Source of the DNA: Morchella semilibera
Taxonomy: Eukaryota; Ascomycota; Pezizomycetes; Pezizales; Morchellaceae
Assembly: GCA_009192285.1 (NCBI GenBank)
Contig: WBVU01000018.1
Coordinates: forward strand, 124,001 to 188,000
Direction of reading: 5' to 3'
DNA: 64,000 nt
Below are positions 1,695 through 59,042 of the stretch, one piece after another. How positions within the stretch are numbered: the stretch's first letter is position 1; the number at the start of each line of letters is the position of its first letter. The notes beneath the pieces are model-generated. The model saw only the letters and a program-made list of their open reading frames with translations, did not search any database and was not told the DNA's origin. A program made the translations under genes and the position numbers.

Positions 1695-4312
1695 TAAACT
1701 CACACACCTGCAAATATCACCACTGTAACAGGAACTGGGCTACGGGAAATGAAAGAATGAGGTTTGAATGAATTGGAGCAGACACGAAAATGAAGATGAC
1801 AGGTCAGGAATATATTAGCACGCATATCTCTATCTCACTACAATAAGTTCATTGGTTTAGGGGAATGGGGTGTGCTACCTGGTGGCTCCGGGAATGGGCG
1901 TATGAAGGGTTTCTTGTTTCTTGTTTTTGTTTTTTTTTCCTCTCTTCTTTCTGGGTATTAGTTTTCTCCGTTTTTTTCTTTTCAATTCCCTATTTCTGTT
2001 CCCTGTTTTTTTTTTGTGGAAGTATTGACATACTTCCGGGCGTACTTGCGTGTGCGCTGTCTGCGGTTCAGGTAGTGTGGTTAGTAGTTGAGTAAAGAGG
2101 GTGATATTCTCGTTCGTTGAATTGTTAATTCGTTAGGATATCCATAGTTTTCTGTTTTTCTTCATTTCCTTTTCCTTTCTCTGCATGTCTCTTATATATC
2201 CCTTACATCATCTACTCCACCTACTACTTGCTATATTCACCTCCTACCTTACTTATACCCCTGTAGTCGTTGCGTGGCGGGTATATAGGCGGGTTTCTTG
2301 CACGCATGGTTGTTGCTATCTTTTTCTTTCTATTGATTTTTTTTTCTTATAGGGGTGGAGTGGGTGACGGTAATGAGGATGATGGGATAGCTAAAGGAAA
2401 GAGTGTAGGGAATGGTGGAGCGCAGTGGAATAAAGATATCGATCTTGACGCGGTACTGTGCCATGCGGATGCAGTCTGCACAGTGCTTGGTGACTCAGGC
2501 GGTCGTTTTAGAAGCACACTGCGGGTACCTGGTGCGTGGTGCGATGTGCGAAGTGCGGGGGTGCGGAGGGGTATATAGGGAGGCCTGGCATTGGCTTTTT
2601 TGTATGTATGTAGATTTTTAGATACATGTATCTTCATGGTATTCTACTTGATTCTTTGGTGAATCATAGGATGTCACTCGATGGTACTGGGATATTAAAA
2701 AGGCTAGACAACACGTGGTCGTGTGGGGGATTGTTTCTTATAGGCTTGCTCCACTATTGCAGTGGAACAACTAACTAATCTATAGTTCTACGGGCTGCTT
2801 TTGGAACTAACTATTCCACTACTTAAGGGCAACTATGTACTGCGTAGTCCATACTACAGTCATTGACTTGATTATTAGTAAAGTAAGGGGCCAAATACGT
2901 ATATACCTTAATACATGTAGTATCTCCTATTTTCGTCGCTCCTTTAGGTGTGTGTTTGAGGGGTGCTCTATAGCTAGCTGAGCGCAGTTCGTTTAATCCT
3001 ATTGTCTCGATGCTCTTATAGACCCGATGTATAGTTATATGTTCTAGCCCGCCGGAGAAAACTCTGCAGCTGATGACCTAGGTGCATAGTCCAGTTATAG
3101 ACCGGCCTACCCAAGAAACCCCTATGTACCAACGGGGGTAGGGTGAATCATATAGAAGGCCCTGGCCCCTACGTATACCCACTGTTTGGAACACTCGAAT
3201 TATCCATTCTTAATTTCACTCTTAATTGTGGCTCACCTGTATTCGATCCGAATAACCCATTAATCAACGTACGCCCGCAAGCTCGCTCGTTCTATGTTGG
3301 GGTGTTTCACCTTCCCGATACCCCTGATGTATATAGCAAAAGGTGTGAAATATCGATTGTATTCTGTACTAACGTAGCTAAATGAATGCTAAATATTCAA
3401 GCTGACCAAGCCGAGGCACCCTAATCCATTCACCGTAAAAGAAACCGCATGTTGATTAACCAACATTAGCTAGCGCTTGTATATACCTGTGCATGCACCA
3501 GCACCAACCATGAACTTGAAATGTTTCGATGAGGATTTTACCTTCAGGTATTGTTGACTCCAAGATAATTGACGATCTGTTACCGGCTGAGCACAACTAG
3601 GCGCTATCAGGACAGGAGGTAGTGCCAGATGGAGCGCCTAGCTAAGCATTGTTGCACCGGATATTAATGTTGGTTCAGAAGATAAGGGGTGAGGTGGTTA
3701 ATCTGGGAAGATTCGCAGTTATACTCGGTTGTGAGGACGTGGTACCGCTATATGTAGACCAAGGCCTTCAGGGCAAAAATATGAACTCGCCCCTTGAAGA
3801 GTTATATAAACCAAGAGCCGGAGGAAGGACTTTGACTGCAGAATGTTAATTCATACTATACAAGGTGAGAGAGTAGTACTGACTGATCCTCAATATGTAA
3901 TCATGAGGGCGGCTATATGGTCGTCTCCTAGAGTACTCTAGAAGCTCTTCCATATTTCTAACTTCGTTCCTCTAGGAATTCTAGGCCCGTCATTGTTGGC
4001 ATTGTGCGCTAGACCCCGTCCTCGCCCTTCTGTTTATTCTCTCCATTCTAAGCAGCTTAGTACATAAACAGTACCACCAAAGCAGACTAAAGGAAGTGCT
4101 TGCGTGTTGGTAGTGGCCCTGAATGGAACCGGTCGAATAACACCAAGCCAGATTGTCATAACCTCCGGGTTTCAGATATATATTCAATGAATTAATATCA
4201 AACCTCCGGATAGATGTCGTCACTCCGAGTCAATAAGAAAAGAAAAAAAAAACTAAAGGGCGGTAGACATCCTAAAAAACTTACACGATATGTCTGGCCA
4301 GCTAGAATAGTA
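1695..4312. other. Gene-free region with a T-rich trailer
   Basis: The first 650 bases after the GTPase stop codon are markedly T-rich on the gene's coding strand (about 1915-2010, then 2330-2345), suggesting an extended 3' UTR or terminator region. After that the sequence is AT-leaning with short open frames showing no recognisable motif, codon bias or splice pattern. Two TACATGTA octamers lie at 2623 and 2912. I see no RNA gene or transposon coding sequence. Confidence 0.5.
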
Positions 4313-4726
4313 CTATGGAGCGGTAAATGTGTCAAAAGTAATTTTACCAACGGTAGTAAATAGGTTTACCACCGGTGAAAATAATTACCATCATTTGTAC
4401 CTTATAATATCAATTTTTATTTATGATAAAAGCACAGACCGGCTTTAGCCAAAAGGGGCTATATAATTCCAATATATACGAACATGATATATCCACGGAT
4501 GGGAAACTCCATCACTAATAGCAGGTATTTCACCACCAGTGGCAGTAGGAAACTTTCATAAGTTTGGCATTAATGATTGAAGATTTGCTAATGTACTATA
4601 TATAGTACAACATAAAGACTGAAATCCAGTTTTATATTGGCACAAGGACTGAAATTCAGTTCTTATACCACCTGTGGTAAATAATTTACTAGGTAAAATT
4701 ACTTTTGACTATTTACCGCTCCATGG
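4313..4726. mobile_element. MITE-like element with long imperfect terminal inverted repeats
   Basis: The left end (from 4313) and the reverse complement of the right end (to 4726) align over about 35 bases with one small indel and a few mismatches. Both contain GGAGCGGTAAAT followed by GTCAAAAGTAATTTTACC. Weaker inverted similarity continues inward through a TTTACCAC(C/A)GGTG segment. The 414-bp interior is AT-rich and noncoding, with a short internal direct repeat (ACTGAAATCCAG near 4619 and ACTGAAATTCAG near 4648). This is the structure of a non-autonomous DNA transposon, but no clear target-site duplication flanks it (a GAATA/AATA match is only suggestive). It could also be an old hairpin-forming repeat. 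Confidence 0.65.
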
Positions 4727-7700
4727 AATACGTATATATACGCGCTTTGGGAATTACGCCTATATATGTACAGTAATTCAAACCAATTTTTTTGATCGAC
4801 CTTTTGGACGTCGACTGGCCTAGGAGCAACTAGAGGCATTGCATCCACCTACGTAGGAGCGATTGCCGGCCTCGGCGCGCATATGCGTCCATATCCTTGA
4901 TTGTGAAGTCATGTCTCGGATTCCCGATTCGACTGTAAACGCAGTTTTTGGCTTGAGTGCAGGGCTGAGACCATCTAATCCGTCGCCTTTGGAGAAAACC
5001 CTGTGTTCATCGAGGTATGTTTTGGCGAGAAACTCAATAACCTCTAAAACTTAGTATTAAAATAGCTGAAGTTCATAAGCATTATTTATACGTACCATGT
5101 AACAGCAAGTAGGACACGAAATCGGACCTGTCAAACAAGCGGCTCTATCCCGGCCCCCAAAACCCTCCGCGATATTCGTCTCTACCTTTGAAATGCTCGC
5201 ACCTATTCTTCCAAGGCCTGCTTCCATCCTCGAGGCAGGGTTTTCGGTACTCTAATTGCCGATAGCTTTATTGAGATCACCCCTAACCTTTCCCAGGCCC
5301 TGCTAGGAATCGTGAGCGGTTTACATCTACAAGAAACCGGAACAGAACAAATTTGCAAACGGTTTAGGGAGAACTTACTCAGTAGATCAGGTGGAGCTGG
5401 AGAATTCTCTGAGTCTTTCCCATCGAAGGAAATACCCAGTGTAGATGAGCCCGTCCATCTACCAGTGATATAGACAATCCCGTCGCTCTTATATAATCAA
5501 TAAAATGACGATTTCCACCAGCTAGTGGTATAGACACCCCGATCTTTGCTATATATAGCATTAAGAAAACGACGGCCTCTAATGCTATCCTATTGTCAGG
5601 ATGGTGGCACGATCGTCCAACTTGTCGACACGGTTCCACTATTTTAAATGTTTAATATTCTGCCACTCTGGCTATCACATGTGGGATTACATACCAATCA
5701 ACCGTTGGACTCGGCACTTTCAGTCTTGCCCCGCCTCGAGGAAGCCATTAGCATCCCCCTTAACGAATCTTCGACTTCTGCATAGGAGATGTTGAATAAT
5801 AGAGCGAGAAGCCAAGTACGTGGACTCCATGTTTGGCAAACAGACAGGGTGGGTTTGTGTGGTTTAAATTCTGGGACACTGAGTTATTGTTTCGCTACAA
5901 TGGCCAAGATTTTCATACTCTTCTCGTCCCTGAAGTTAGATTTCTTTGCGTACGTACACGTCTCAGACGTACGTATGTACGTACGTGAACTAGTGGAAAG
6001 GAATTACATAGTAAAAAAAAGGATAGCAAAGTCATTGGTAATTAATCAATATCATGATATCAGCCAGTGATGCAATAAGGAGAAGATGTAGAAATTTAGA
6101 GTGGTATTGTATTGTTCATGATGGGAAGAGGGAGGCTCGCTCTTGCCATCCTATCTCATAACTACATGTACACGTATTCCGAGTTGTCGAAAATAATGAG
6201 ACGCAACCGGATTGATCAACCAATCAAGTAGTTATAATCATATATTATCACTCGCTCCGATCCTTCACTACATGTAGCCAATACATGTACCTCTAGCACT
6301 AGCGCCAAGAGTACTTCGGACGCCCGAGTTGATACCGTCACCCGAAGCCCGGAAATAACACTCTAACAGCCGCCAATAAACAGACTCATTAGATCAGGGA
6401 CGTCAAGAGGCCCCGTACCACAGAGCCTTCCAGTGGCCGTTTGGACCCTGGGTCCTTTTCACATCAATAACGCTCGGTGCTTGAACGGGGTTTATAATTA
6501 TTCGGGCGTACCAATAATGTGCCATCTCACAATCGAGCCTTGTCCTCAGCTCTCTAAGCATATATATAAGCTCGATCACTGTATGTACCTACATGTAAGC
6601 ACCACTCACGCGTTAAAGTCCGAAACACCATCTGGTGCTGTCAGTGGATGTATAAGAGTATCTACAAGGGTTCCCACCGATTCTGGCCCAATCAATTACT
6701 TACACCCTGACATTCTGAACCACACCCCACTTTCGGTCATATCAGATAGGGCCTTGATGGAAACACACTTTAATATCGAATCATCTACTTAATCAGGGTC
6801 TACGATTATGTACTCTAGTTGGGGTCCGGCTTGGCTCGCTAGTCCCTCCTACCGTTCCCTCTAAGATTCGCATAACCCGGGCCCGCTGCAGGAAGTGTTT
6901 ACCGGCATTTCTCATGCCCATCGATCTTTGTAAAGCACCCTTCCGATCATTGAGCTGCGTGATCACTTCAATAGGCGCTCCCTTGCAGCCTGTCATACCG
7001 CCCCGTGCACGCGCAATTGGTGCGGCACTAAGCGGGACGGATAAACTTACATGTAGTACATATGTTACACACGCGACCTATAATGGCCTTACATGCAGTA
7101 TATAAATCTTTTTTTCTCCAAAATTTATTAAAGCAGCAAACAATCTTTTTTTTTAGGGGCCCTAGAGTAGAGCTACAATCGTATCTAATAGAGCATAATT
7201 ACATAACTATACGCGCCTCCCTACCAGGCCCTTATCATATACATCCAATCCATCTTATCTCGTACATACTCCTCCGAGTTTATCATGTTATCGTGACTAG
7301 AGTTTTTAGAATCTAGTATGGGTGGGGGAAAATGCACGAGGGGAAAAATACATGAGAAAGGAAATGCTGGTCATTACATACTAAAAATCAAACTAAAGTA
7401 TACTATGATGAAAGGGGACCCAGGGACCATATGAAAATGCTAAACTGAAAAGAAAAGCCGAATAAAGAAGGGGGGAAAGAGAAAATAAGGGGAAAAAAAA
7501 ACGCCTCAAGAAATGATTTTATCGCGAGAACCCCATGTAAAGCTATGCATATCCTTAATTCTGCCCTTCCCCCACCTCCTTCCAATCCCCAGCCCCACAC
7601 CCATATGCTCTCAGTCATGAACCCAGACATAAGCTAAAAGGAAATAATTTTTGAGAAAGAAAATAAAGAAGAATAGACGTAAAACAGTAACAAGATAAAT

Positions 7701-11379: not shown

Positions 11380-14300
11380 CGTGAATTATCCCTCCCTTTC
11401 GATGTTAAAGTTGTGTTGTAGAGTTCAACTTCCCCTCAGCAGGTGTCGTGATGTGAGGCGATAATCCAGAATTTAAGAACCAAAAACGGTTAAGAATTAG
11501 CGTGATCTATCTCCGCACTAACTCCTACCGTTAATTCGTCTCTTATCCGCGGTATTGCAAAGCTTATGTAGCGAATAGTGAACTAATTTCTAGAAACGAG
11601 AATGAAACATCCAAGCCGTCAGTCAAAAGTCGACCTTTGAGCTTCGGAACAATGAATTATCAGAATCAGAACCAAATATTCATCTCCCCAGATCCGGAAG
11701 AAAAGAAAGACAAACCTATTGAAGTTTGCAGAGGCTATCGCGGTCGAAAAAGACTGTGTCAGTGCGGAGAAGAAAAGCTCCTTTGGTCACCGCGTCCGAT
11801 AGTGGCAGTGGTTGGGCACAAGAGCCGAAGTAGCCACAGACTGGAAGATTCAGACCAGCTCCGTTGATTATCCAATTGTGCACGTTCCAACGTGATGGAA
11901 TCCTCGCCACAAATAAAACTTTGTACGAAGAGAAGTACAGTTGTGAGTGCGAGAGTGGGGAGGAGGAAAGGGAAGAGAGGTACAGGTGGAGGAGAATAGG
12001 AAAGAGAAGGTAGAAGTGAAGGACAAATCAGATAGATATGAGCAAGCTGTAAAATTAAATTCTTAAGCCACCCCGGCTCTTTACAAAGTATAGTTCAACC
12101 GTCTGCCGCATAGCGCCTAAGCGAATTCTTTCGGTATGATCTGGTCTCTCTAAAATTTCACCTATTGTAAATTAACAGGGTTTATTATACGTCATGCATC
12201 AGAAACTCGACCAGCCAAGACTATTTCCTGCCCATCACAGGTTGTGCTGTTGTCTAGGAATCGGATCAGCATCGACAATAACCGCTCTACTTCAACCACT
12301 CATCACGCTCTAGTATTCTATATTCGTGTGGGATCTGAAAGGGTTGGGACTATGTGAGTGTTGTTACCTATCCATCTCATGTATCGTACTTGCATAAAAT
12401 GCTTGTTGTTATTCAACATTGTTATACCAAAGCTATTGCTGACTTCAGTCCCTTCCTCAACTCGAATAGACTGATGTGTATAAACAGAGAGGACTTGGCT
12501 GAAATCTATGGTTAGAGTGGAATTTAGGAAACTCTCTAGCTTGTAAACCCCCACCGGCTCCCGTTACCTTTTGCTCAAAACAGCAAGGCAAGGCTTTGAA
12601 TTGAGTCGCCAAGTGAATAAATAGATAAAACATCCCAGCCCCCACTTTCCATGGCCAGTCACCATCTCGCAACCTGAGATTTCTAGTTAGTGCCAGCATA
12701 AGACGAGACAAGTGAATACCTCGACAGGCTACTAGGAGGATAGTCGCCTAAACTACTCTTTAGAGGGCTGGGAGGATGACCTTCGAAAAAGAAACCCAGC
12801 AGGCTGAAGAGAGGTTTGCGCCGGCACTACAGAAAAGGCCAGTATAGCCGTGGTAGTTGCACCTCAATCTTCTCCACTTTATAGACTTTTGTTTGATTAA
12901 ACAAGTCAGAGCAGGGTGCCATATGGCCATGTCATTGTATATGATGTCTATAGCTATAGATCTAGAAATAACGCCCTGGCAGGGAATCCAATATGTTACA
13001 TTGCGGTGGCTCCCGCCAGGAACTTGCCCAGAACTAACTATTTAAAGAATGGTTCAATAAGGCTTTTAATTTTCTCCCGCAGCTCAGCATCCTGGGTTCT
13101 AACAAAGTGGAACCGTGGACGTCACCGGATTTTTCGCCGGTTTCATGCGCAATTAAGGTTTTGGGGCATACGGCTGTTCACTACAAACCGGGCCAATGGC
13201 CAACGAGAACCGACCAGGCGGGGAAGCCATATCTGCTGGGAATATTTTGAGAGAACACAAACTTCTGGTCGCTTACTGCATGTGTGTACAAATTTACATA
13301 GATGGTACTCGCGCGAATAAATACATGTAATCCTCTGCTTTCCCTTGATTAAGCTGTCAGTGCCTGTCACCAAAATGCTGACCGAAAGTAGTTGCCAAGA
13401 AAGTGGCTTTTGCATACAGTTATCTTTCCCTATATACAAATTCTGATACCCGAGCCACAGGCACTTGCAACGACCCTCTGCTCTACTTATTAAGTAATGC
13501 GTTAACTGGCCACAGGTGGGTCCGTGCAATCAGTAGTTCCAGTACATGTAGTTAAGTATTTGTGTTGCGCTTCTAACTAATAGCGATTTACTCTGGAGTG
13601 GATATCCACATATATGTAGGCGCTGCAGCTGCTCGAGCATTATTAGTATCCAGTCGTTGTCCCCTGTACTCGATTAACCCTAGAACGCAGCCATACCAAT
13701 GCATTCAAGATTCGCATGCATACATGCAGCCAGATCTGCTGGAAATACAGAGAGAAAAGGTAACCGATCCTAGATACTATCACCCGGCTGATGATAGACG
13801 AATAGCGCCGGAATAAATGATTTTTTAAGGGGCGAAATATACGTACATTATGATGTGGAAAAAAATTTCCTAGCGCGACTCAGATAACACGTGTATGCGC
13901 TATTCTTATGTACATGATGAAAGAATCTCCCAACACCGGAGATAATCGCACTATTACCAACAGTGCGGGTCATCACTCGTCTCTAGCCATATAACAATAT
14001 CCTATCCGGGAATAAGGCCTCCCTAAACATAGTCTGACTATTGGAAAGATTACCAGACATATATTACTAATAAATACGAAGTTAAGACATGTTCTTCGAT
14101 CTTAAACTGCCGTAGTTTTGGCGTTGTGGAACATCGGAATGTATTTGATTCAAACCACTAATTTCATTGCCAAGCGGTGGTACTGTTTATTGGTGCTTCT
14201 TTCTCTGAATCCATGTGCACGCAGAAGGAGATTGATACGCTATCATGAAAGATCACAATACTTATGTGATAAGTAAATAACACAACAGTCAGCAGATGTT

Positions 14301-16248
14301 GGATCTTGAAACCGCTATTATTGAGCTGCATATACCCACGCTTAGATAGATATCACGCATACAGAGGTTGAAAACCCTATCTACCATTGAGAAATGTGCC
14401 AAGACACTAGTTTCTACTCTATCATATTTGCGTGCAGGACGACCTTAGCGCACAACGGGCGAACGCAACAAAGTCCAACGCGACAAAGTCCAACTCAACG
14501 AAGCCCAACGCAATGAATTCAAATTATATGCTTGATGGTTATTGCTACTAATATACGGGCACCCTCATCTAGCTGGATATATGGTTTTGATACTTGTTCA
14601 GCGTCGATAGTTGAGATCAATCGAGGTTGCGAGTCTAGTTAACAGTCGCCACTCACCCTTCGTCCTACACTTAAAATCGGGCAAGTACAATCCCGTGTCT
14701 TGGCAGAATTTCTCTTCAACCAGGCAAAAGTTTATACTCGGGTTTTATAAAGAGACCTCCCTTTGGTTTTTTTCGGTGTCATTTCTATTCCCTGAGGTTT
14801 AAAGAACTCAGTCAGATTTCGAATGCATCGGGTGTGTTTAGAACCAGACTGGAAGAAAAAACTGCCGGACCCTGCATAAACGCGGCTCTGCGGGACCTAA
14901 AAAATCGAGGGCTGGAAATGATAGGATGAATCATAGCATATCACTCGACTATGGTAATGATTTTTAATTCCACAAAGATATGCAGTTCCTTTTGATACCC
15001 CTGCACCAAACGCCACCCAGAGGGCCCATTTCTACATTACCTTATGTGATATGAAGTTGGGACATGTGTCATTTAAGTGCTGACTATGCTAGGCGCTCTT
15101 GAGGTTCATATTAACTCAATTAACCCCTCTATTGCATGCGCCTGGTCGGTTTCCGGTAATCTCCCAACACGCGTACAAAGAATCAAGTAAAGCGGGCTAG
15201 ATATGCATTTTCAGCTGTGCCTTAGCAGTAAGCACGCTTATCCCCGTGGACAGCTACTGCTTTACTGCGAGCCAACAATTTGAGGCACGCAACGGAACTT
15301 CATGAGTGCATTCGCGCACATATTTGAATGAGCTGCAGCCCTTTTTTTTTTTTTTTTTTTTTTACTTTTTTGTTGAAGAATGGGTGTCATAGTTTGTGCT
15401 GGACAAAGCCGTTTGAGTATTTAGGCGAGGTGCAGATTAGCAAACTTACACCCGAGATAGTTGCTTAGATATCACACAAACATATCTTAGCTAGAACACA
15501 CTGGTACAACCTAGGCCTAAAGACTCGAGTCGGGTACAGTGTCGGGCCTGGTTTTTTCCAGCTCAAAATTTGGCAACTGGGCGTTTTAGCACGTATTTAT
15601 GTGGGCCCAGTGAGGGGCTCTTACATGTAGTTAAGATCCGTCTAAATTCTAGGATCAAGAAGGTTTAAGTTTGTTACCGGTGTTTGGGGATTGTTGTTTT
15701 TGAAGACATTGAGGTTGGAGCCCTAATCTATCGGGCGTCGATCATCGAGTCATATCCCATGATCCTATTGATTATGAAACGCCCACTGGGGTTCACTTTA
15801 AGGCTTTCAACGGTTTAGATGCTCTGTGACACTACATGTATTGATCAAGGCCCTAATTAGCATGCCATGTGACCAAAACAAACCATTGTTTTAAAACAGT
15901 GTGGTCCACGCGCGCAGACACAGAGTGCACAATGAATCAAGTTAGAGTACACGCATGTATGTACATAATATAGATACGCATGATGAAGTACATGTGTTTT
16001 TATTCTCGAAGTACATACATACATATCTCGAGGCAAGGACACATGTAGTTGTTTTGATACATACTAGTACCTTTGGCCTTGTAGTGTGACAATGGTCCTG
16101 CGTGTCCCCAACAATTGAAGGTCAAGCATTTCTTTCTTTGGGGAGATTATCGGCTCAAGAGTATGTATACCCAGGTATAAAAACCTAAGGAATACCTAGG
16201 ATCATTGATTGAGTCCACTATACTTTCCGTCACAAACCCCCCCGCTCC
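11380..16248. other. Gene-free region upstream of the antiporter and downstream of the hexose transporter
   Basis: The antiporter promoter should occupy the first few hundred bases; no specific element stands out. The rest has only short open frames without recognisable motifs, plus a 15-bp minisatellite at 14464-14523, a T run at about 15342-15363, and TACATGTA octamers at 13322, 13543, 15622 and 15833. I see no tRNA box B motif, rRNA, or transposase or reverse-transcriptase motif. Confidence 0.45.
14464..14523. repeat. 15-bp minisatellite, four units
   Basis: Four adjacent 15-base units read CGCAACAAAGTCCAA, CGCGACAAAGTCCAA, CTCAACGAAGCCCAA and CGCAATGAATTCAAA. Unit length is a multiple of three, and one plus-strand frame reads as pentapeptides of the type NATKS, preceded by an open stretch and a possible splice acceptor near 14437. 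No complete gene can be built around it. Confidence 0.7.
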
Positions 16249-18362: not shown

Positions 18363-21300
18363 CTTGGTAGAGGTAGTCTTCCAAGTCGATTGTAAGACAA
18401 GAAAGCTGTCCTAGATGTTGAGGATGGAGAGGATGGAGAAAGTGAAAGAGTGCGGGGCCCAAGCCAACTTTATAGAATCCAAGCATCACGGCAGCTGGTC
18501 ATGTTCAGTGTGTAAGTTATGCTTCATGCGTTGAAGCAGGTGCAGGTCAACGGGAAGTGTATCACGCCTGGCTGGTACTAACTGACCCGATCTATGTGTG
18601 TACTACCAACCCACGGGCAGGGAAAAAAGAAAATCAGACAATTTAGGCAGGCAGGTAGGTAATACTCACGACGTCGTAACAACCAATTGGGTCCTAGGTA
18701 CACGGAATCGCACGCTCATGAGTACGTACTGTATCGTGCAGGGCTGTTATTTAATTATTAACGGGGCACAAAGCCAGTAAAAACCTAACTAATTGACCCT
18801 ATGATTGGAACTGCAAACAGCCCTGAGCTGGCTCACTGCTTTCAAGGCAATTGCACCTCGCACTTTTACATTGCGCACTGCTATAGACCGCAAATTTCAC
18901 GCCATATAATCCCCACGTGAGACCTTTCCCCCACACCCCGGTTTTCACTGGGATAAATTGAGTTGTAGCAACTTTACCCACATATCGGCTGCTCTCAGCA
19001 TTAGATAATTATTGCGGAGGAACAGGCGGTTCCCCTGCCTCGAAATCTGGAATCTAACGTTAATTAGATATATACATGTGAGTACAGGTAGTTGTTGCTT
19101 GACAGGGCCAGGTCCGACCCAATAACGCCCGTCGTTTCAAAAGCGGACTAAGGTTCTGGGATTGTTTTTGTAGACTTGGCATCTTGCCGGTTTTTCCGAA
19201 GTCTGCTGCTGACGTCACATTCCGACCAGATGCGGCTCATCTTAGTCCAGAAATGGCAAAAACAGACGTCAATCCCTTTTCGGGATCTTGACAACTTTGC
19301 CCTCCTTGTTAGCATCTGGCCAGTAAACTGGTCCTCCTCTTCCCCACGCTTAAAAGTGAGGTTTCGAGTGGCGCTATTTTGGATTACTCTCTGATTCCGG
19401 GGAAGAGATTCCTGGAAAAACCGAAAACGATAACTCTGTTAATCGAATCTGTGGGGAGGCTGGGGAAATGGGAGGAAAAAAGTGGGGACAATTCTGCAAG
19501 GTTAATAGCTGATAACCGCTAAAGTCAACAACACCTGAACTCGCAAACAGATGCCAAAATACACCCCCACCCCCCCAAAAAAAAACTCTCTTGTTCAGGG
19601 TGCGGTTAATTGAGAAATAAATAGTCACGATACTGGTTCCGGTGACCTGGATGGATATTCGTGCTATATGGGGTGGCAAGAAAGCTGGAAAGGTCACGCA
19701 TGGGTACTATAAACTATCCCATGCTCTCGAGTAGCTTACTCGCTGCATACCTCAACTAAAAAAGTCCTATTTTTTCTGCAGATTAAACCCGGATTATAGA
19801 TTGTCAGCTGCATGACTTTACTCTAAAAAGAAGCGGTAAAAAAAAAAATCGGGGAGAAAAGATGATACCTTGGCAGGTATATATTGTATCAGCTAAGGTC
19901 TAAGGCTACAACTACATGTAGTGAGCGATATTCAGGCACGTCCCAGTAGATATGACAGATTGTTTATCTATCTGTCGAACGAGTTATGGGGAATCAGTTC
20001 GCAGAAACCTCGGGGAAATTGAGATTTCTCCAGGCTGCATGTGCACAAACTCGGCTTTCATGCCTGCCTGTTCCCCCCTCTAGTCTCCAGCTCTTACCAC
20101 CCACTACAAGGATGCTTCTCACTCGAGCTCGTGGCTAGACATTATGTTTCAAGGATTATATTAATCTCTTAGCTAGAATTCAAAGAAAGCTAGAGAGTGG
20201 TTCAAGGTCACGATCATACTCCTTGATTTTTCTTGGGTTTTCTTAGCGCAACGTCGTCGTCAAGCAACAGCCACAGCCATCTTGGCTCGCCTTATTTCCT
20301 TTTGCCAATGCCCGGAACAACCTCTTGCCATGCAATGGCTTCCGAAACATTCTATTTACCGGGGGTGAATTTATCCACCTGCATTCATCCTTCCGAATTC
20401 CGAAAAGCCCTCTCGACCTACTGTATGTACCTACATGCCTACGATAGGTACTACAAACCCCCATTTAGGCACCAGAGTAGGGTAGTTACTCTCATATTAC
20501 AAAGAAAATTTCCTCCCATTTCGGCATCTTAATGATCCGTGCGTGTGGCTACACAGGGAAGGAGAAAAGGGAGGGAATCGGTAGTGGGATGCTGTACTAC
20601 GTATTGGCAGCAGGCATCCGATCCGATCATTACCAACTCCATCATCGTCTTGACCTTTTTTTTCTCTCATGGTCGATGGACGACCCACCGGGAAGATACA
20701 TCTGCTGTCAACCATGTGGAATGGAAGGAAACGCTGATTCTACTGCTAGCTCAGCAAGCTACTAGCTCAAGCCAGGCCGGTGGTACTGGAACTATTTTTT
20801 AAATTTTTTTTATATACGCGTCAACGTCAAAACGCGCACCTCTAATCTGCGGGGAAGCTACGGTCTTTGCTCCGACCTGGAGAGGCGTTGGTACCAAGTT
20901 CTTTGAAATCATAATCATCCCCACAATTACCAACGCAGCACTTTGAAACCTTTTTTGTTTTGGCCCGCTTACCCCCGACGGTCCTATGTAGGGTTGGGTG
21001 GTGCATGTACCTACCTAGTAGTACGTTATCTATCCCGCTAACCCTCAAAATTATTCCACTGGAATCGACTGAGGTAATCGGCTGAGGTTTTTGCGTTTGT
21101 GGGGAAAGAAGTTTTTCATTGAATCTACCCAGCTAGCCAGCTAGCATATACATGCATTGCCGTTACTGCTGCTGGGTGAATAATAATCAGAAATAACTTT
21201 ACTTGACATACACTCTATTTACACTCGGTACCCTATGCTAGTATACTTATAGGTTGGAATCGAGGGATTGGTAGCGGAATCGGAGAGTGAATAATGCAGG

Positions 21301-22746: not shown

Positions 22747-24273
22747 TGGGGTGTGTAATAGACAGCGCGGTATTTCAGTAGTAATAGTAGTGGTAATTGT
22801 AATTGTAATTGTAACAGCAACAGCAACAGTGGTGAAATCAATAGCTGGTTATCGAATCAGCGGGCTACATATAATGTCTAGCTTCCATCTTGTTGTTTGT
22901 TTATCTGTTTGTTGTTGTTTGTCTATATCTTGTCTTGTTTCTCATTCCTGGCAGCTCTGGAATTGGAATGTAGATTCTTGTCCTGGACGAGACGAGGCGA
23001 GACGAAACATGACGTGTATGTACACCACAGAACCCACAATACAGCGCAATACTCTGTGCCTATAAACCAAAACCGTATTAAAAAATCGCCGTGGCTGAAG
23101 GAGAGTATAGTAGTATAGTAGTATAGCAGTATACGTACCAGCGAGCATACACCAATACTTTGTCGAAATGGTTATTGTACATACCTATTCCAAGGCCTTG
23201 ACCAGGTACTTACATGTAGCTAGTCCTGCCCAGTGAGTGCTCGATCAGGCTCACCTGCCCGGTATGCGTAGTCTACATGTACTCTACCTATTCCTACCTA
23301 CACTACCTACACTACACTACACTACTCTACACTACCTACACTACCAACCGCGCCCACCCCATAACCCACCCCATAACCTATCCACGCTCTCTCTCGCGCG
23401 GCCGGAGACGGGAGACGGGGCGCGGCCGGAGACCGGGTGTGCATGTAATATATCAAGCTGTACATACTATAGTACCTGGCCGTGGGGGCGCCCTGACAGG
23501 GGTTAGGGTTGGGCGTCATGGGGCGTCACTCGGGTTTCTGTGTCCTCTGTGGGGGCCGTCTAGCTACAGGATAGGATAGGCCCGTGCGCTGCACTACCGA
23601 CGACTCAACCAGTCTACTATGCTACGAGATGTATACAGCATACCACCTACGTGTCTACACCCGCGGGAGGCCCGCGGCGCTAGGACCCGGAGCCGGGAGC
23701 AGCGTGGAGGGCCGCTGGGGGTGCTGTTTGCTGGTATGTAAGTTGTAAATGGGCGCGGGTTGGGTTGGGTTGCTGGATGTCACGTTTGTAGCTAGCTGGG
23801 GGCGGGTGGGTGGATGAATGGATTGGTGTGTAAGTGCCGTCATGGACCATCACTCGGGTTTCTGGTTTTCGGTTTCTGTACGTCGAGCGGTTTGTAGCGT
23901 GTGGTGCGGGTGTGAAGATTAAGAAGAGGGTTGGGGGCCGGGGGGGGGGGGGGTGGACCGGCCAATAGTTACTTAGCAGTGGGTCTGTATATGTGGGGGC
24001 TACAATGTATTTACGTACATGTACTTACTTACATAGCCCCAACCAGCCCTCCGACCGACCCGTCCCACCAAGCAGCAGAGACACGGGCGGTCACTCGTGG
24101 CGCCGTACCATTATGGTTGTGGGCGTGTCAATGATCATTACTGTTTTTCCCTGGTTTGTCCCGGGGGTTACATTATAGATGGATGTCTTGCTCTTTAGTT
24201 CAATGATCAATGGGAATGATGGAACTACTGTTTCATATTCCTACTTGCTATGTACATATATCATACACTGCCC
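22747..24273. other. Gene-free spacer inside the GC-rich pocket
   Basis: No supported gene. It contains CTACACTACC-type short repeats near 23310-23345, a G run near 23940-23953, and TACATGTA octamers at 23211, 23274 and 24016. The 187-codon plus-strand frame at 22502-23065 is mostly the complement of the Ser/Arg-rich exon and is not called. Confidence 0.4.
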
Positions 24274-25440: not shown

Positions 25441-27227
25441 CTCTGTCTGTCTGCAGATCAGTCGGGTGTGCGCAAACCAATGGAGGACGTACTGGGGCTG
25501 TATCTTGTTAGCTAGTACAATGCAGTGGATTAAGATGGAATGGTAGACCTGTGGTGTATGTATGTAGTTGTGTCAATTGGCTGTCGAGTCTGTGTATATC
25601 AAAGGAGCGACGTTTTGAAATTTGATGATCGATCACGAGAATCGATACGTAGCTAGCCGGATGTGGAATACGTAGTTACTTGTAGTTTGCGTCACAGGCG
25701 TGCACTCGGATGTATAGGACATGCAAGTACCGCACCTGTATCTCTTGATTCTCTCTTCTGTATCAGGGTGTGTATTGTGTATTGTGCCATTTGGTGGGGA
25801 GCGCAGATATGATATATATTGATGTTGTACGTAGGGAGAAGTAATTATCACTGTCTTGTCAGTCAGCTATATATATATACAGTTAAAGTGCAATGACGGT
25901 GGGTATAATTATAACTGTACTGTGGCTATAGCACCACGTCGACCCTCTCCTCGCTACAGTACCGCTATATATATAATTATAAGGATACATTATGTGACAG
26001 TTCTGCATCCACTTACCGCCCCCCGTTACGGCGGTACTGCATATTAAAGTGGCGTTCTCATATGACATCTGCCGGTCCCGAGTTATATGAGGATGTCCTT
26101 GAGTACTTATTTAGTGAAGCTGTACTCTGCGGGTATCCTTATATACAGGGAGATCCAGAACGGACTCGGATTATCGGGCACAAAGGGACTGACATGACCT
26201 TAGATGTGTAGTCACGTGTGCAAAACTCGACTCTTCCTCTTCCCACGTACGCCCAGTCCCAGAACCTACATAGCTTTGTGGTGATGACCTCCCCCACATA
26301 TATAAGAAGTGCCGGCCAGCCAGCTGCAGGTCACCCAAACTATGTACATACATAAAGTATCCCTAGAGGCCAGCTACAGCCACTCTTCAAAAACGCCAGT
26401 GGTTCATATACAACATGGCCAGTGCCCAGGCTTACAGAGCTGAAGCAAAGACCCCCATCTACAGAACTACAGAAACCCGATACCAGAATAAAAACACATG
26501 TACTGGCGGCCTTGGATCTGAAGCAATGCACAGTTTAGTTGGGGTCGTATCGAGTCCGAGTCACGAACACTTTTGGCGGGGGGCTGTATGTATATGTATA
26601 TCTTTAACCTCCCGATAACGGGGTTGTGCTGGATATGTTGGTGTACTCGGGGAGCTCTCCGGTTTATTTCTATCCGTGTGTGTCCTTGAAACGGGAGTTC
26701 CTACCATAACGTCGACGCCCCTCGTGCCCAATACACAGCATCAAAAGATGGATGGATCACTACAGCGTTCCCGTCAATACACTACACCCAGTAATACGGC
26801 ATTGGCACAGCCATATATTCCTCCCCAAAGGCGGTCTTTGCCACCAAACCCACAACTACAACTACACCCCATCCCCCATCCCCCAGCAGTGCACAAAGCA
26901 GGTAACGGCCAACCTTCCCAAAAAAACGAATATCACACCGTGTCGATACCTCACATCCTCACCTGGATCACACACCATCACTCGACGCCACACGGCCAAC
27001 CCGGAAGGCATCTCATGCGATGCCCTCCCTGCTAGAGTAGGCATGGCCCGGCCCCCAAAAAGAAAATTGGGGGATGCACGCGTGTCTTGGGCGCTCGGGC
27101 CACGGTGTATGCTAGCCTCGCTCCTCCAGTCATGTCCCGGCGGGCAGGGCAGTGGGTACATGTACATGTACATATCGCCTGCCTACCTACCTACCTAGAT
27201 GAGGTTCCGCGCTGTCGGGATCGTGAA

Positions 27228-27228: not shown

Positions 27229-27261
<33 letters not shown>

Positions 27262-33700: not shown

Positions 33701-36700
33701 TGATCAAACTCTTCATTAACTCAGCTCAGTGGACGGATAGAGGCGTAAAGGTGCTCTCCAGCTGTTCACAAAGCAATGTACCTGGTAGTGATGCTCTGGT
33801 AAGACAGCGACATCAATAATACGGATAGAGCAGACGGCATGCCACCCACCGGATACTTCTCCCTTTCCAATGACGATGGACTGGACCCCTAATCTTATGG
33901 TATTACTCTACGGCTAATATAAAATCTTAGACTGTGTCTACATCATCGTGCGGCGACGGCGCCTACAAAATGTAGCTAGCCCAACTTTTTACTTCCTTAG
34001 TTAAATCTTGGGTCTCCTTTAGTTAATCGTCACGTTATCAACGAACATTCCATCAAACCTGAATACATAGAGCTAGGGGATAGTAGGTAATTACATGTAG
34101 CTTTTTTTTTTTTTTTTTTTTCCTTTCACCGCCGGCAGAGTGCATGTTCCTTTTTCCCCCTCTGCGTTGTCCTCAGTTTCCGATATCTTGGTTACGTGGA
34201 AATAGATCGTGGTCAGATGTGGAATGACGTACTTTCCCGGCAATTAGATAAGAGGAAGAATAGCTAGAAAAAAAGTGAAGATTATGAGTGAGTGAACGAG
34301 TGAGGGTCTGTAGGCTGTAGTTACTAGAGTAGTTGGCCAAGCAAGAGACATAGTTAAGGGTTGTCGTGATGGATGGATGGACAGATGGCATAGTACCTGC
34401 AAGCTAGTCATGTGTGAACGTTACACGATATTGTGATTGTGGGGTTTCAGAAGGGGGAAACGTGAATATTCAACTTTTAGTACCTCATGTGCTATGATGA
34501 AATCGTTCACGGGCAGAGCTCAGGGTTCGCTTTGCATAATCAGCCCATTTTACCCCCTTCCCTTGAATTACGCTAGTTGGAGTAGTTGGAGCAAGCAAGC
34601 CATGCATTTGGTTTGATTTTTTCGTCTGATCTGATGCACTGTAGGTACTGGGTGGGCAGAGTTATGTACCGAAAAGTACATGTATGTAGGGGGAAAGAAA
34701 GAAAGGAAGCGAACGGATTGTTTCTCTCACGACCACAATCATCACCCCCCTTCTTCGTTCCTTTTTTTCTCTGCTTCAACCTCACGATATTCTACATCGA
34801 TTTCATTGGCCTGGTCACAGTGAGTTACAGCTAGAATGACAGCACAGCAGCACCACTAGGATACATACCGGAAGTGAGTATCTACATATGATGTATCTAC
34901 ACTACATCCTCAAACTCTCCTTATACATCATCATCAACTTTAAAGATACATGTATCCTAGGATAATGACGCATCAAAAATTTATGAATTTTTTTTGTCAT
35001 CTACGTCGAATAAACATATCTCAAGCACCACTCATATTTTATTTCTTCCGCTGCACAAAATTAATTCCCCGCATTAATCCCTTTTTCCCCATGATATGAT
35101 GCTGCTGACTGAGGGGTTTTGTTATCTCACGATGATTCCCCCTTTGGTGTTTTAGCAGTCGGATTAGCACGGTGACCGCGCATGCATCGGAAAAGGGCTG
35201 TTTTTATGCTGTGTCCGCCGTGTCCAGGTCCAGTCACTTGCTGTTAGCATGACACTCAACGTGTAAAGGCGGCGCAGCATGAGCTGGGGACACCTCCCTC
35301 AAAACTAACCCGCTAACCCGTAAGCTAGTGACAGGCCCCCCTTTGCTTTTTCCCAATCACCACTAAGCGAAGGAGATCTTTTTTCTGCTTCCCATCTGTA
35401 CCACAACGGCGGCGAAGAAGGAAGGAGGGAAAGAAGGGGTTGGTCCCTTGATCACCTACCTACCTACATACAACCTGCTTCCACCTCCATCATCACCGTC
35501 ATCATCGATTCAATCAACTGCGTGGTCCGGCTGCGTGTGTTGAAATGTGTTCCTACAGTTTTTTTGCTGGTGATGGCGCCTGGCGGTCACATAATATGAA
35601 AACAATACTAAGGTTAACTATTACCTCCTAGTCCTCCCTTTTCCGTGATCCCTCTTTCTCTCCCGCGATGTGTTATGTCGTTCTGCTGCTGTGTCTGCGC
35701 CTGTGAGGATTTACAAACAGAAAAAAAAAAAAATTAATTTTTAGGAATCAAAGCATCAGCTGCCTCAGCACCAGACAGCTTCCCAGACAAAAGGGCTAGA
35801 TCCGTACCCGCGACGATCCATCCAGCTACTTACATGTACAGACCCTACATACGCCATTCCTCACATCCCCCATCACAAAAGAAATCATATTTCAAAGTGG
35901 AGAAACTCCAGGAAGTATCAATGCGGCTCAAATTTATTTATATGTTTTTTTTTTTAAAAAAAAAAACCTTCACATTGAAAAAAAAATGGAGGGGCAGGTG
36001 AGGGGCATGGAGGGGCAGAGCTCAGGGTCCGATAGTAAACAGGGCCAAGCCCTATCGTATCGACTATCGATAAGAAAAGAAACAGCTTACGTGGGTAGGG
36101 TGCCGCGTTACCGCTAGAAAAATGTGGATTAATAAATGTATTACTCTACGATCAGCGGAGATGGGAATACCTTCCGTAGCTATTATGTGAAGTGGAAATC
36201 AGGTCAAGGGTACCAATCTTATTTTTTTTTTATAAAGAAAAAAAAAACATTGGCAGCCACAACATCGTGCTGTACGTGCACAGGACATTACTCTCGTTCG
36301 ATACCGACGTCATTGAGTTGCAGACCGAACAAACACAGAACACAACAACAGCCGGCCTCGTCGGATTTTTTTTTTTTATGAAATCAAATCAAATCCTTGG
36401 ACTGAATTGCACACGCTAAAGCCCACACACCCACATATATCCTCGCGTCGAAAGGTTTACAATAGGCATGGTTAGCAAAGAGAGAAGACGCAGGGCGGCT
36501 CCCGCGGCGGCGGTGGGAAGCCTGTAGGTGGTGCGGTTCATCTTTCCTTCCCCTTCCTAAAATACATGTATATTCTATCTCCGGTAAAATACCTAGATAC
36601 GTGTAGGAAGAGGGAGAATATGGTTATATTGTGTTTGGGTCTGGGGAAAGTCGAAGAAATCGCCCCTGCTCTAAAGGACTATCAGATTGAGCTGGAAACA

Positions 36701-39700
36701 AAAATCGCGCAAGATGGCGATTATTGGGAGTGAGTATTTGCTCAAGCCTCCCGTTACAGAAGATCAAGAAGCTCAAGAAGCTCAAGAAGTGGCCGATATG
36801 TACCTACCTCTGTCCACCACTGTATCCCGGGCCCAAAATTGGGGGGGGGGGGGGCAATGCAAGATGTGATGTGAGCTTCTAGCCTTTCCATACCTCGAGG
36901 TTTAGCTACATACCGCTGTCTGTCCATGTATCTGATTTGTAGTCGAAGGTCAACCCTACCACCGGCCAGCGAGATGGGTAAATTAAGGCTCGGCAAGAAA
37001 ACCGTTTCTCTCTAGGGCATGGTTCTGCCACACTCGGTTTCCTTCCGTCTTGTTGTGCCTGTCAAGTAAAGCAGGTTGGCCAGAGGACCGGGACGCCACT
37101 AGCTGACTTGAAGGTCCTCTTTAAACACCTATTTTTTTTGGACGGTAAACGAAGGTTGAGAGCGATAAATCTACTACCATGTGTACATGTATATCTGGAT
37201 CCTGATCCCATGGTTTTAACGGGCTCGAAAAGTACATACATGTACCTACGTACATATTTTACATATGCACAAGTAAAAGGTGATATATTAGTCCAGTTGT
37301 AATTCAGCCTGATGGTTTCCGAGATCTTCAGCTGTGTAATCATTGGCCGGGGTTCTTAAAGATACAATTTCCTTATGATCAACCGAGAAAAGGACTCGAC
37401 TTGCGCTTTTTGGGAATTACAACCGGCATCATCCTTTTTTGCCTCCTTGTGGTGGTGGTTTAATATTTTTTTTTCTGCCTTCTTTTTTGTTTCCATGGAG
37501 TTCATGGATAACAACTACCGACCTGACTTCTGCGAATTACGAGACGGGAACGGAGCGAGCAGGCAAGATTAACTGAAGGCATGCATCTTGTCCCCCCCCC
37601 CCCAATTCTCAAGAAGCGTTCAGGCACCAGAATGATGCTGCTGCTTTGCTGGTTGGCTAGAGAAAACTAGGTCAAGCAGTATGTACCATATCACTACATC
37701 GATATGTGGTAGTATCTTTCACTCAGCCTTGTCATGGAAACCTCACTGATTAGAATTCAGAGCAGCTTAGTTCTGGGTCATTTTGCCGTGTCATATCGAC
37801 ACTTGGTGGGTCTGGGCCACGGTCCCCGTTCTGATATGTTTCTCGAATTGTCAATGATGATCTACAGACAACGTGGTAGGGTAGCACGCGGGCGAGGCCA
37901 CTCCCTGCTGCCTTCCTAATGCAAGACATATTTCTCGTCTCGAAACGTGGATAGTGGTCTTACTGAGTATCTCTACCTATGTTCCTATGCAGAGTTGTCT
38001 ACTATCTCGTACTTACACCAGCATGCTGTCGAAAAGAGGCATTAGGGTATGTATTGATACATACATGACTGGTAGTGTGCGGAACAGAGAAATCATTACC
38101 ACCCAGATATAGGAATTTAATGACCAATCTATCCTTTAGGCTTTTAGGAGGTATCCGTGCGTCCCAATTCATCCTGCTTTAACTAGTGCATATGTGCCTG
38201 GACAATGCTGCAACTTGTTGCGGATCTTATCAAACTATCTTTCGCCACTTTAGCAAACAACCTGTTTCTGGGCGCGGGCGCGCCAGACCTGGTACCTCTC
38301 TTCCTTTCCAAACACCCCGGCGTTTCGACGTTGCCGCCGTATTAGCCCGCCGGGAAGATCCAGAGGTTCATCCGGCACAATCTTGAAAGCTTGAGCGGCT
38401 CCTCCCGAGCTAGAGGCCGGAAGCAACGGGCAACGGGCGGGATAGAAACAGGTATATGTGCTCAAGTCCCTTTCCCAAGAATGGTACATACAGACAGCTA
38501 CACAACTAAAGCTAGAAGAGTAGATACCTAGCCTGGTGGTGGCTGTATGCCTCAGGTTCATCCATAGCCCATGACCGGCGGTTGTTTAATATCATTTCTC
38601 CCGGACGGTGTCAAGGTGTAAACGCCTGTTTATTATTGTTATTATTATTTATGTATTTATGTTATCATTTTATTATTTTCTCCTTCGACAACGGCGGATG
38701 CATAATAGTTACATGTATGTGTACATCTGTACATCTTCTCGGATAAAACTCCAATCACAATCACGCGAGCAGCATTCCCAGCTTCACAACCCTGGAAACT
38801 GGATAGAGGCTGCTTGTCTTGGTTTTTTTCTCCCACGATATAATTTCTTTTTGCCCGGCAGAACCGTAAGCGAATATTCCCACCAAGGAACTCGGCGGCG
38901 CTGACCATCTATCAATAAAACTGTCCCTAAAGGGCATTGTTTCCGGCTAGCGATTTATCTCAGGGGTTGGTCATGGTGGTGCTGGTACATGGTGGGTGTT
39001 GGTTGTTTACTACCTTCCAATGCACCATGGGGAAATTCAGGGAACACAGGAAAAAAAAGAGCAGCGGACATGCTAGATTGGGCGGGTTAAACCGAGAGAT
39101 CAGAACCAGAAACTTAACAAAACAGATAGCGGTATTAGATATGTAGTCAATCACTGGGTGAAAAAACGGACACTGACTGTTAATGGGTAGGCTAAGGTCG
39201 AGACTTCAACGAATAAGATCTATTAGAAAGATTTCTCACCATAGTTGGAATCCTTGCCAGTGTGCCCCCGTCTTCACCCGTGAACAACTTTTACAAGAAT
39301 TTGACGCCTGAAATAAATAACACCTATATCATACCAACCATGCCATACCTAATGTGGAGCTTGAGTCTGCCAATGGGAGATTTGGGGGGGTCCACTTCAG
39401 TAGCCGGCGGTATCATCACGATGCTTGCCAATCACAATTACAACTTTGCCCGCGAGCTCGTAAGTCACGTTTTCTTAATTGAAGGGGGGGGGGAAAAAAA
39501 AAAGAGAGAGAGAGAGGCCTTCCTTATGGGATATGTTGGGGACGCTACTCTACATCCGCGCAACCATGCATATCAAGACTGTGTGCTTCGACGACTCTCT
39601 TGCCAGCCTAAATTGCAATAAAGCTAGGCCACCGAAGCTGTTGAGAGGGAAGTCTGACCACAGGCGTAAGTCAAGGCAGAGGGTAGAGTAATAGAGTAGG

Positions 39701-42700: not shown

Positions 42701-43619
42701 GATCCAAGATCTCCAGTTTTATGGGATAACTTTGCTATTCTGAGTGAGTAGGTACTTGACTCGAAGGTATTCTAAGCCGATACGAAGCTGGGAAGGTACC
42801 TCCACACCCTGTATTTATTCGAGGTAGCACCGAGTTAACAGCGGTTTCTTGTTATATGCAGGCCGAATAATTATCCGATGAAATATCTTACTTGAGGAAA
42901 TATTGGTAGCCTGCCTCTCACCTCACTCACAATCGACGCGGACTGGGGGGGTTCGAAATGAGATAGGCCCTTCTTGTACCTCTACACTGCCTTCTTGCCT
43001 TGTTCTCCGTTCTTAGCATGTGTGTGAATGTACCATCAATGTGATTGCTAGTCACTATCACCCTATCACATACTTGCTATCCGGATCCCTGTGTGTGTGT
43101 GTGTGTAAGTATACCTCCTATACCATGCTGCTTTAATTTGATATTATTCACACAGACGACCCTCCTTCCCCAGCTTTTGGTTTTGGATTTGCACATCTTT
43201 TTTTTTTTTTTCTTATTTCCTTTTGCTAACACTCAGCATATGTAGCAGCTGGGGGCACCGACACACCGCGACCCACATTTTTCTGGTGCATGCGAGTCAA
43301 TTGAACGTCAACGAACCACAGCCCACGATACCGTGACGTACACACGAGCGAGACCTCGAGGTTTCCTAGGCAATCTGCTACAAGTTAGTGAGTGCCGGAA
43401 TAACACCAACGACCCGAGGGAAACAGCCACCTCGCCTCGCTTTCTCTCGGCGGCACGGCTACGTTTTTTTATTTTATTTTTCCTCTGTTCTCTTCCCTCT
43501 TTCGTTTGATCCTACCCTGCACCACCCAAAAAAGAGGGTAGCGGTAAAGTTGTTGCGACGATATAAAAATACATGTACCTTCAATCTGGAAAAAATAAAA
43601 ACACTTGCAACGCCTTGAG
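30701..43619. other. Gene desert, right part
   Basis: Nearly 13 kb without a supported gene on either strand. Open frames are short, many lack ATG, and none shows a recognisable motif, sustained codon bias or spliceable neighbours. I see no transposase, reverse transcriptase, rRNA or tRNA signals. Features are homopolymer runs, a perfect T11-A11 palindrome at 35945-35966, CAATCAGT-type short repeats at about 31133-31180, and eleven TACATGTA octamers between 31461 and 38717 plus one at 43570. Confidence 0.4.
35945..35966. repeat. T11-A11 homopolymer palindrome
   Basis: Eleven T residues are followed directly by eleven A residues, a perfect palindrome that could extrude or act as a nucleosome-excluding element. 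Another A run and T run lie within 300 bases on either side. Confidence 0.6.
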
Positions 43620-50871: not shown

Positions 50872-50907
<36 letters not shown>

Positions 50908-57596: not shown

Positions 57597-59042
57597 ATCC
57601 TTTACACCACTGTCTCTGATTCAGTTGTGAGGATTGTTGAGTGTTGATATGTATGTATCTGTCCTGCGTTCGATCTAGATGCCCAGTACTCTGCGAATAT
57701 TCCCAAGTTGCTCAGCAGGCAGACAGTATTCTCTCTCTCTGCCTACTATAGATCCCCCGGCTTCTTCTGTTTCCGTTTCCGTTTCCGCTCAGTGTCTCTA
57801 TCTCTATTCTTTCGGTACGGGGGTACTTGGGTCCGTCGTCGTCAATGTCACTATTAAAATTGATGATAGGTACCGATAACCCTTAATTTTGTCGGTTCCT
57901 GGCGTGCTCGTGTGCGCGCATAAACATAAAAGAGTAGGAGGAGGTTAAAAAATAGTAATAGCAGCAGGATCCACCCAGCTAGCTAGGTTCACGTCAGGGA
58001 AGGAAAGGAAAAAACTCTCCTAACGAGGAGGCTTCAATCACTCCGGATAACCCTACCTCCCTGTCCTTCGGACTCCGTACCTCCGGCCACTGCCCTCTAA
58101 CTAATTAACAGAGGATCTGTATACCTAGTAGTAGTATGCCTAGGTGCGAAAAGGGACTCCATTGTCAGCATTCCACTTAATCCGTCCCGTATGACTCCTT
58201 CTGTTGTTTTGCGCGGTCCCTGGTCGCTGCAGTTGCAGCGTCCGGGTAGACTGCGATCTAACCTCCGACTGGCAGCTCCCGTTTGTGACACGTGAAAAAC
58301 ACTCACAACAGCACAAACAAGCTTCTTTTGGCCCCTCTTCAACCCCACCGATCCTTTTTGGGGGGTAGTGTATGTGTGTGCGTGTGGTTGGTTGGTTGGT
58401 TGGCTGGTTGGTGGTGGTTCGATAGACAACGGAGCTCCGTAGGTAAATATGGGTATTGTAGGTGTAGAGGGACAGAAGGTATCATAGGAGGCTCTGCTTG
58501 CCTTAGGCATTTAGACAGAAAGCTCAGACGACAGAGAGACACCGGAATGTTAGATCTACTTAAATACCCATTTTCCTCTACTATATCTACAAGTGGGATG
58601 ACTGATCTTCGTGTTGTTTTCTAACTAGTTGTAACCCTGGCACTGTTTTATGCAGGTACTTTAGCGGGGGCTTTATTGGCACTCGGGCTTCGATTGTGCT
58701 CATCCAAAGGTAACAATTACATGTAGTATGTAGTTATTCCTGTATATCAGCGTGACACTTTGTAACTTGAACTTGTACTTCGAGAGATACTTTCAGGGTT
58801 TTGCTACACGAGCTCAAGAGATCTTTGGCCCCCCAGAAGTAATAATGAAAATTCACTTGCGTATACAAAGAAAAAAATAAAAAAAAATAAAAAAAATAGG
58901 GAACCATTGGAATTAAGGTGCGCACAATCAAATAATTCGTGGTATGTAGTCTTGCTCCTAGCTTAATCATTCAACCACCAGATACGCCTAAACAATAATA
59001 GAACACCTTTTTTTAAAGCCATGGTAGACAGTTATCGCGTAA
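57597..59042. other. Spacer between the F-box gene promoter and the CAND1 3' end
   Basis: The left part should be the F-box gene promoter, with CT-rich sequence and TTTCCG repeats near 57769-57790. A GGTT/GGCT repeat lies at about 58386-58410, one TACATGTA octamer at 58718, and an A-rich block at about 58868-58899 that would be U-rich in the CAND1 trailer. The 137-codon minus-strand frame at 58097-58510 has no motif and overlaps simple repeats, so it is not called. Confidence 0.4.

Follow-up and report, generated by a model that had tools for sequence, protein, structure and literature searches.

Transposons of the Tc1 type are cut at their 3' ends and two bases inside their 5' ends (PMC2170065; this and all other papers are cited from excerpts). 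The octamer TACATGTA has been termed a rare Tc1 excision footprint in worms (PMC3520976), and in the same excerpt the authors who described Phytophthora promoter motif-1 weighed a footprint origin for it and did not expect one. The target consensus of the transposon Sleeping Beauty has been given as ANNTANNT (PMC2756404). Here we describe the distribution of TACATGTA in a stretch of 64,000 nucleotides from the morel Morchella semilibera (contig C15, 124001-188000; hereafter the window) and in the assembly of 56.8 Mb and 23 contigs to which it belongs. The octamer is highly abundant, avoids genes and, in our judgement, probably represents accumulated excision scars of Tc1-like elements and their miniature inverted-repeat transposable elements (MITEs), composed as TA+CA+TG+TA.

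Over-representation of the octamer

An earlier, sequence-only reading of the window listed 34 exact copies of TACATGTA. All 34 starts are correct and there is no further copy in the window; 11 copies extend to TACATGTAG, as counted by eye. The reading's estimate of about one copy by chance agrees with an order-0 model, which expects 1.2. Unmasked models expect 1.5 copies in the window at order 2, 2.6 at order 3, 14.4 at order 5 and 28.7 at order 6, the high-order values being inflated because the octamer contributes its own inner words to the model. The whole assembly contains 22,206 copies compared with 3,723 of the reversed word ATGTACAT, both counts being somewhat high owing to the duplication of two or more contig pairs.

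Finer counts were made in a sample of 207,172 non-duplicate bases, consisting of the window, five 10-kb pieces each from C9 and C12 (the matching C10 and C13 pieces being duplicates), four 10-kb pieces from elsewhere and one 3-kb locus. This sample holds 99 copies. In its noncoding part (149 kb), Markov models built with the octamers masked expect 4.8, 7.1, 5.1 and 4.6 copies at orders 3, 4, 5 and 6, respectively (2.6-7.1 over orders 1-6 together), whereas unmasked models expect 8, 22, 50 and 88 at orders 3-6. Against the masked models of orders 3-6 the excess stays 14- to 22-fold, so the observation survives the comparison with Markov expectation by which it could have been overturned. The word is also sharply defined, since its 12 one-mismatch types occur at 0.1-2.6 times expectation, compared with 12-fold for TACATGTA itself (unmasked order-3 model). 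Among the 16 TA-palindrome octamers, only TACATGTA (99 versus 4.8 expected) and TATATATA (57 versus 10.1) exceed a fourfold excess. The over-representation of TACATGTA is real and genome-wide.

Distribution relative to genes

Coding sequence was called with a simple home-made hidden Markov model (HMM) trained on long open frames; the calls carry no transcript check and gene starts are not found. The coding share by these calls is 24.7% in the window and 28% in the sample. As the sequence-only reading had claimed for the window, called exons are free of the octamer (0/34 copies in the window, 0/99 in the sample). A codon-phase model alone would predict 0.2 copies in coding sequence, whereas the noncoding rate per TA would give 21 (0 of 2,225 coding TAs observed); intron-like TAs are likewise without the word (0/111).

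The avoidance extends beyond the exons. At more than 250 bp from called genes 97 of 8,586 TAs lie in an octamer, compared with 2 of 2,010 within that distance. When assigned by the nearest coding base, 2 of 99 octamers are within 250 bp, as against 2,172 of all 10,707 TAs (20.3%; Fisher p=1e-7). Distant copies are found alike on both gene sides (58/4,727 TAs upstream, 39/3,859 downstream). No proximal promoter enrichment is seen, with 0 of 934 TAs up to 250 bp upstream of called coding sequence, and there is no promoter peak further out, where rates per bin are 0.9-1.5% upstream and 0.2-1.5% downstream. Thus, as far as unchecked HMM gene calls can tell, the octamer is spread like tolerated insertions, away from genes, which is the distribution expected of Tc1/mariner footprints because insertions near genes would be purged.

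Other words behave differently. TATATATA shows the opposite pattern, with 23 of 57 copies near genes, and no such depletion is seen for TACATACA-type words (16/78 near genes) or TANNTANNTA (48/249). Depletion is mild for TACATA/TATGTA (44/298), GTAC (94/646) and the one-mismatch neighbours of the octamer (20/143). Such avoidance of genes is difficult to reconcile with a promoter element, although the make-up of untranslated regions may differ. Of the causes put forward by the sequence-only reading, a transposon footprint is the one that the data favour, and the empty upstream TAs make binding of a promoter type less likely.

Tc1-like elements and their target preference

We infer the following course of events. 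Tc1-like elements (Tc1/mariner, DDE_3 transposase) and their MITEs would insert at TA, duplicating it, with element ends of the form CA...TG. A cut two bases inside each 5' end would leave the flanking DNA with CA and TG overhangs, and an end joining that keeps both would yield TA-CA-TG-TA, six bases longer than the empty TA. Insertions in or beside genes would be purged; intergenic scars would pile up and mutate slowly.

Elements with the appropriate ends are resident in the genome. The assembly contains 69 DDE_3 (Tc1-like) matches, duplicate contigs counted, several of them with open frames of 343-426 codons. Inverted-repeat ends were located in elements L027, L029, L030 and L033. The end regions of seven more elements were taken blindly, and such ends were present in four of these (L040/41, L042/43, L044/45 and L048/49); none were found in L026, in L028 or in the remaining three. 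Of 27 distinct transposon ends, 26 start with TA-CA and one (L037) with TA-TA. The octamer therefore equals the target duplication plus the terminal bases of resident elements, albeit in a biased sample of ends. The window itself contains a non-autonomous Tc1-like MITE (Table 1), whose ends show the TA and the CA/TG from which excision would make TACATGTA. This MITE is a diverged member of a family of roughly 275 bp with 51 matching ends genome-wide. A 2.3-kb copy (C4:1658206-1660476) is bounded on either side by the MITE terminal repeat and encloses the DDE_3 match at C4:1659938; it is a candidate for the parent element of this family.

The DNA around the octamers partly resembles the insertion sites of these elements. 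Flanks were taken from the sample and ten extra loci counted as noncoding, some of which have transposase genes (106 octamers, 211 flank sides). T at +3 occurs on 59% of sides compared with 33% in the background, A at +4 on 49% compared with 32%, and A at +1 on 13% compared with 23%. The corresponding figures for transposon ends are 22/27, 15/27 and 0/27, so that the two sets agree at +3, at +4 and in avoiding A at +1. Genome-wide, A stands at -3 in 40 of 51 MITE ends, or in 38 of 48 when three rows from contigs that are duplicates, or presumed to be so, are left out. The Sleeping Beauty consensus is contained in TANNTANNTA, the sequence that remains when CATGTA is removed from the octamer. 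One-mismatch neighbours of the octamer have an intermediate flank signature (A-3 43%, T+3 45%, background 35%), and those with the signature on both sides are near genes in 2 of 30 cases, compared with 18 of 113 for those without. This diluted signature and gene avoidance are as they should be for decayed scars. Dependence between left and right flanks gave p values of 0.39, 0.12, 0.03 and 0.40 for widths 1-4 in an underpowered test.

Three observations on insertion sites stand beside these results. Each of the 16 ends from the seven autonomous Tc1-like types (L027, L029, L030, L033, L040-L045, L048, L049) lies in GTAC, which suggests that the target is strictly GTAC or that four bases are duplicated, instead of plain TA. 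The Tc1-like insertion L048/49 apparently lies inside an octamer's own TA, and a palindromic MITE-like hairpin ending CT...AG (L012:5889-5987, C12 near 515,890) apparently lies inside the first TA of a TACATGTA.

Evidence against an excision origin

Several findings weigh against scars of these elements. The ends were partly found by way of TACA words, so that 26/27 is not an unbiased figure, and the sample also has TA-flanked inverted repeats with CT...AG ends. The flanks also disagree at two positions. C at +1 is found in 16/16 autonomous ends (seven types) and 6/11 MITE-type ends compared with 25% of octamers, and +2 favours A in element ends (13/27) but T in octamers (43%). Because of these differences, the main scar-making family is probably outside those read and is perhaps mostly gone.

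A search for empty sites gave little help. Self-comparison of the sampled DNA yielded no informative pair of filled and empty sites. When 89 isolated sites were put to a removal-length test, which was underpowered, the best length was 6 bases (z=1.13, p=0.13), with 1 base at z=1.03. No net length of +6 was seen by eye in 30 near-full-length rows of a repeat resembling a long interspersed nuclear element (LINE), one of them on a duplicate contig. Among full-length MITE copies with a net gain (n=10), three gain multiples of six (Table 1), which is no more than suggestive.

The +4 Tc1 scar of worms is TACATA/TATGTA, and these words are 2.1-fold enriched here, yet after removal of repeat-like flanks they show no clear target signature; their regional correlation is rho 0.35 (p 0.01, the lowest p among 10 words tested). 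In worm soma +4 is the typical Tc1 scar, at 78% (PMC13148408). A published Phytophthora promoter motif is identical to TACATGTA and deserves a re-test.

Alternative explanations

The main rival to scars is a site for an abundant dimeric DNA-binding protein (a transcription factor, insulator or architectural protein) with the extended palindrome TANNTACATGTANNTA, an explanation that we regard as unlikely. It would account for a sharp palindrome with a flank preference that is palindromic too, and the assembly does contain one TALE-homeobox (PF05920) match. The Phytophthora word is in its favour as well, both as motif-1, for which an Irx homeodomain preference is noted in the excerpt (PMC3520976), and as motif M93 (PMC3597505). 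Close octamer pairs tend to lie 10 bases apart (19 among the first 100 in a list of 2,666), but further helical phasing is not evident among these 100 spacings, and the 10-base peak is not decisive, as it would suit a doubly hit TANNTA target and also a protein dimer. What such a protein would not predict is the likeness of the flanks to transposon insertion sites. Nor does the explanation sit well with the upstream regions described above, or with one-mismatch neighbours that are at most 2.6-fold enriched. The tandem form TACATGTACATGTA (501 copies) was considered as a further test and rejected as unclean, because its control, the doubled reversed word (90 copies), itself contains the octamer.

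It appears improbable that the octamer arises from TACA/TGTA microsatellites, or from a bias in local copying or mutation that makes short palindromes. TACATACA and TGTATGTA are also enriched and the octamer lies in a TA-rich context at odd offsets, both of which such a process could explain. However, the sequence-only reading was right that most copies are outside tetranucleotide arrays: 173 of the 211 flank sides have no TGTA/TACA within 8 bases, and these keep the signature (T+3 54%); the observation thus withstands the microsatellite check as well. The restriction of strong excess to two of the TA palindromes, and the lack of gene avoidance in TACATACA-type words, also argue against a general bias. 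An RNA-level signal in untranslated regions (a 3'-end processing or stability element) would suit the UGUA inside the word and its noncoding location, but is very improbable given that only 2/99 copies are within 200 bases of called coding sequence and that many are in long stretches without any, such as window positions 25,444-45,598.

Features of the window and assembly

Positions of the octamers and MITEs are collected in Table 1. Between window positions 27229 and 29460, varied tetranucleotide repeats (GCTG, ACTC, TGAG, CAGG, ACAG) are packed into about 2 kb. Pfam matches include Nha1_C, Sugar_tr and Fungal_trans and indicate a filamentous fungus; a scan of the window against Rfam at gathering thresholds gave no match. 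The LINE-like repeat was recognised at L022:7996-10000 from its translation by eye, and its 30 near-full-length rows elsewhere are 88-94% identical; the 10-kb L022 piece is without TACATGTA.

Contigs C9/C10 and C12/C13 are duplicate assemblies, matching at 100% over 49,952 bases and at 99.93%, with small gaps only, over about 48,950 bases, respectively. They were considered as allelic pairs and rejected, since they are identical or differ only by scattered gaps of 1-3 bases and offer no usable polymorphism. C21 and C22 seem to be alike, judging by coordinates only. The sole reported 5.8S rRNA match (L021, C19:2699587-2699758) scores 39.5 bits, under the family cut-off; with 39 of 1,209 candidates scored, this does not imply absence of rDNA.

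Table 1. Copies of the octamer and MITEs discussed in the text (window positions unless a contig is given).
Feature	Position	Strand	Remark
TACATGTA	2623..2630	.	
TACATGTA	2912..2919	.	
TACATGTA	6163..6170	.	
TACATGTA	6269..6276	.	pair member, spacing 13
TACATGTA	6282..6289	.	pair member, spacing 13
TACATGTA	6590..6597	.	
TACATGTA	7048..7055	.	
TACATGTA	13322..13329	.	
TACATGTA	13543..13550	.	GTTA as right flank
TACATGTA	15622..15629	.	GTTA as right flank
TACATGTA	15833..15840	.	
TACATGTA	19913..19920	.	
TACATGTA	23211..23218	.	
TACATGTA	23274..23281	.	
TACATGTA	24016..24023	.	
Resident non-autonomous Tc1-like MITE, TA-CAGCCACTCTTCAAAA...CTTTTGGCGGGGGGCTG-TA	26375..26588	.	DNA search
TACATGTA	27157..27164	.	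overlapping pair TACATGTACATGTA with 27163 copy
TACATGTA	27163..27170	.	overlapping pair with 27157 copy
TACATGTA	27710..27717	.	
TACATGTA	27786..27793	.	
TACATGTA	28026..28033	.	
TACATGTA	28995..29002	.	adjoins TACA run
TACATGTA	31461..31468	.	
TACATGTA	32362..32369	.	
TACATGTA	33132..33139	.	GTTA as right flank
TACATGTA	34092..34099	.	
TACATGTA	34677..34684	.	
TACATGTA	34947..34954	.	
TACATGTA	35831..35838	.	
TACATGTA	36563..36570	.	
TACATGTA	37184..37191	.	
TACATGTA	37237..37244	.	
TACATGTA	38710..38717	.	
TACATGTA	43570..43577	.	
TACATGTA	58718..58725	.	
MITE copy, +6 versus 279-base query	C1:3960298-3960582		length only
MITE copy, +12 versus 279-base query	C11:120153-120443		length only
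MITE copy, +18 versus 279-base query	C9:1388063-1388359		length only

Implications

If the octamers are excision scars, they would be a genome-wide fossil record of jumping and not a control switch. It would follow that the words of intergenic DNA can be dominated by excision scars, which may be taken for regulatory motifs; motif discovery in genomes of this kind would therefore need a scar filter. The scars would also directly count past jumps and record the way in which excision breaks were mended, information that the resident copies do not give by themselves. The wider proposal, which we offer tentatively and consider somewhat more doubtful than not, is that few words in an entire eukaryotic genome are as over-represented as these scars (more than 20,000 copies, about 1% of intergenic TAs), that the scars are kept by the overhang-preserving end joining of a haploid fungus, that they form a countable and datable record of transposition far exceeding the resident elements, and that abundant TACATGTA "promoter motifs" elsewhere, as in Phytophthora, are scars too. 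Footprints of this kind are already known; what would be new is how many there are, that the +6 form stands out and what this means for motif discovery. Among the matches listed from open-licence literature, genome-scale TACATGTA scars were not found in print. If the scar reading is right, the published regulatory claim for Phytophthora becomes testable by simple counting of distance to genes, match of the flanks to local Tc1 ends and presence or absence of the 6 bases between strains.

Comparison with known systems

HIP1 of cyanobacteria is a hugely iterated octameric palindrome that is present in coding DNA too. The octamer of M. semilibera shares this massive iteration but, unlike HIP1, avoids coding sequence. 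The Tc1 and Tc3 footprints of Caenorhabditis elegans have the same construction, with a TA target and a scar consisting of TA plus terminal bases. They differ in that +4 is typical of Tc1, whereas here it is the +6 word that is prominent, its copies numbering in the tens of thousands. Sleeping Beauty makes a three-base cut. Its target consensus, as given in the excerpt cited above, fits the octamer flanks here, but its scar is seven bases long (form printed in PMC2874221).

Motif-1/M93 of Phytophthora infestans is the same octamer and, according to the excerpts, likewise a very abundant inverted repeat (PMC3520976, PMC3597505). A further Phytophthora palindrome, M94 (TACCGGTA; PMC3597505), also consists of TA, two bases, their complement and TA, and could be a second type of scar. 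The Phytophthora motif is described in these excerpts as lying upstream of genes and as tied to expression, whereas the octamer of M. semilibera is depleted near genes.

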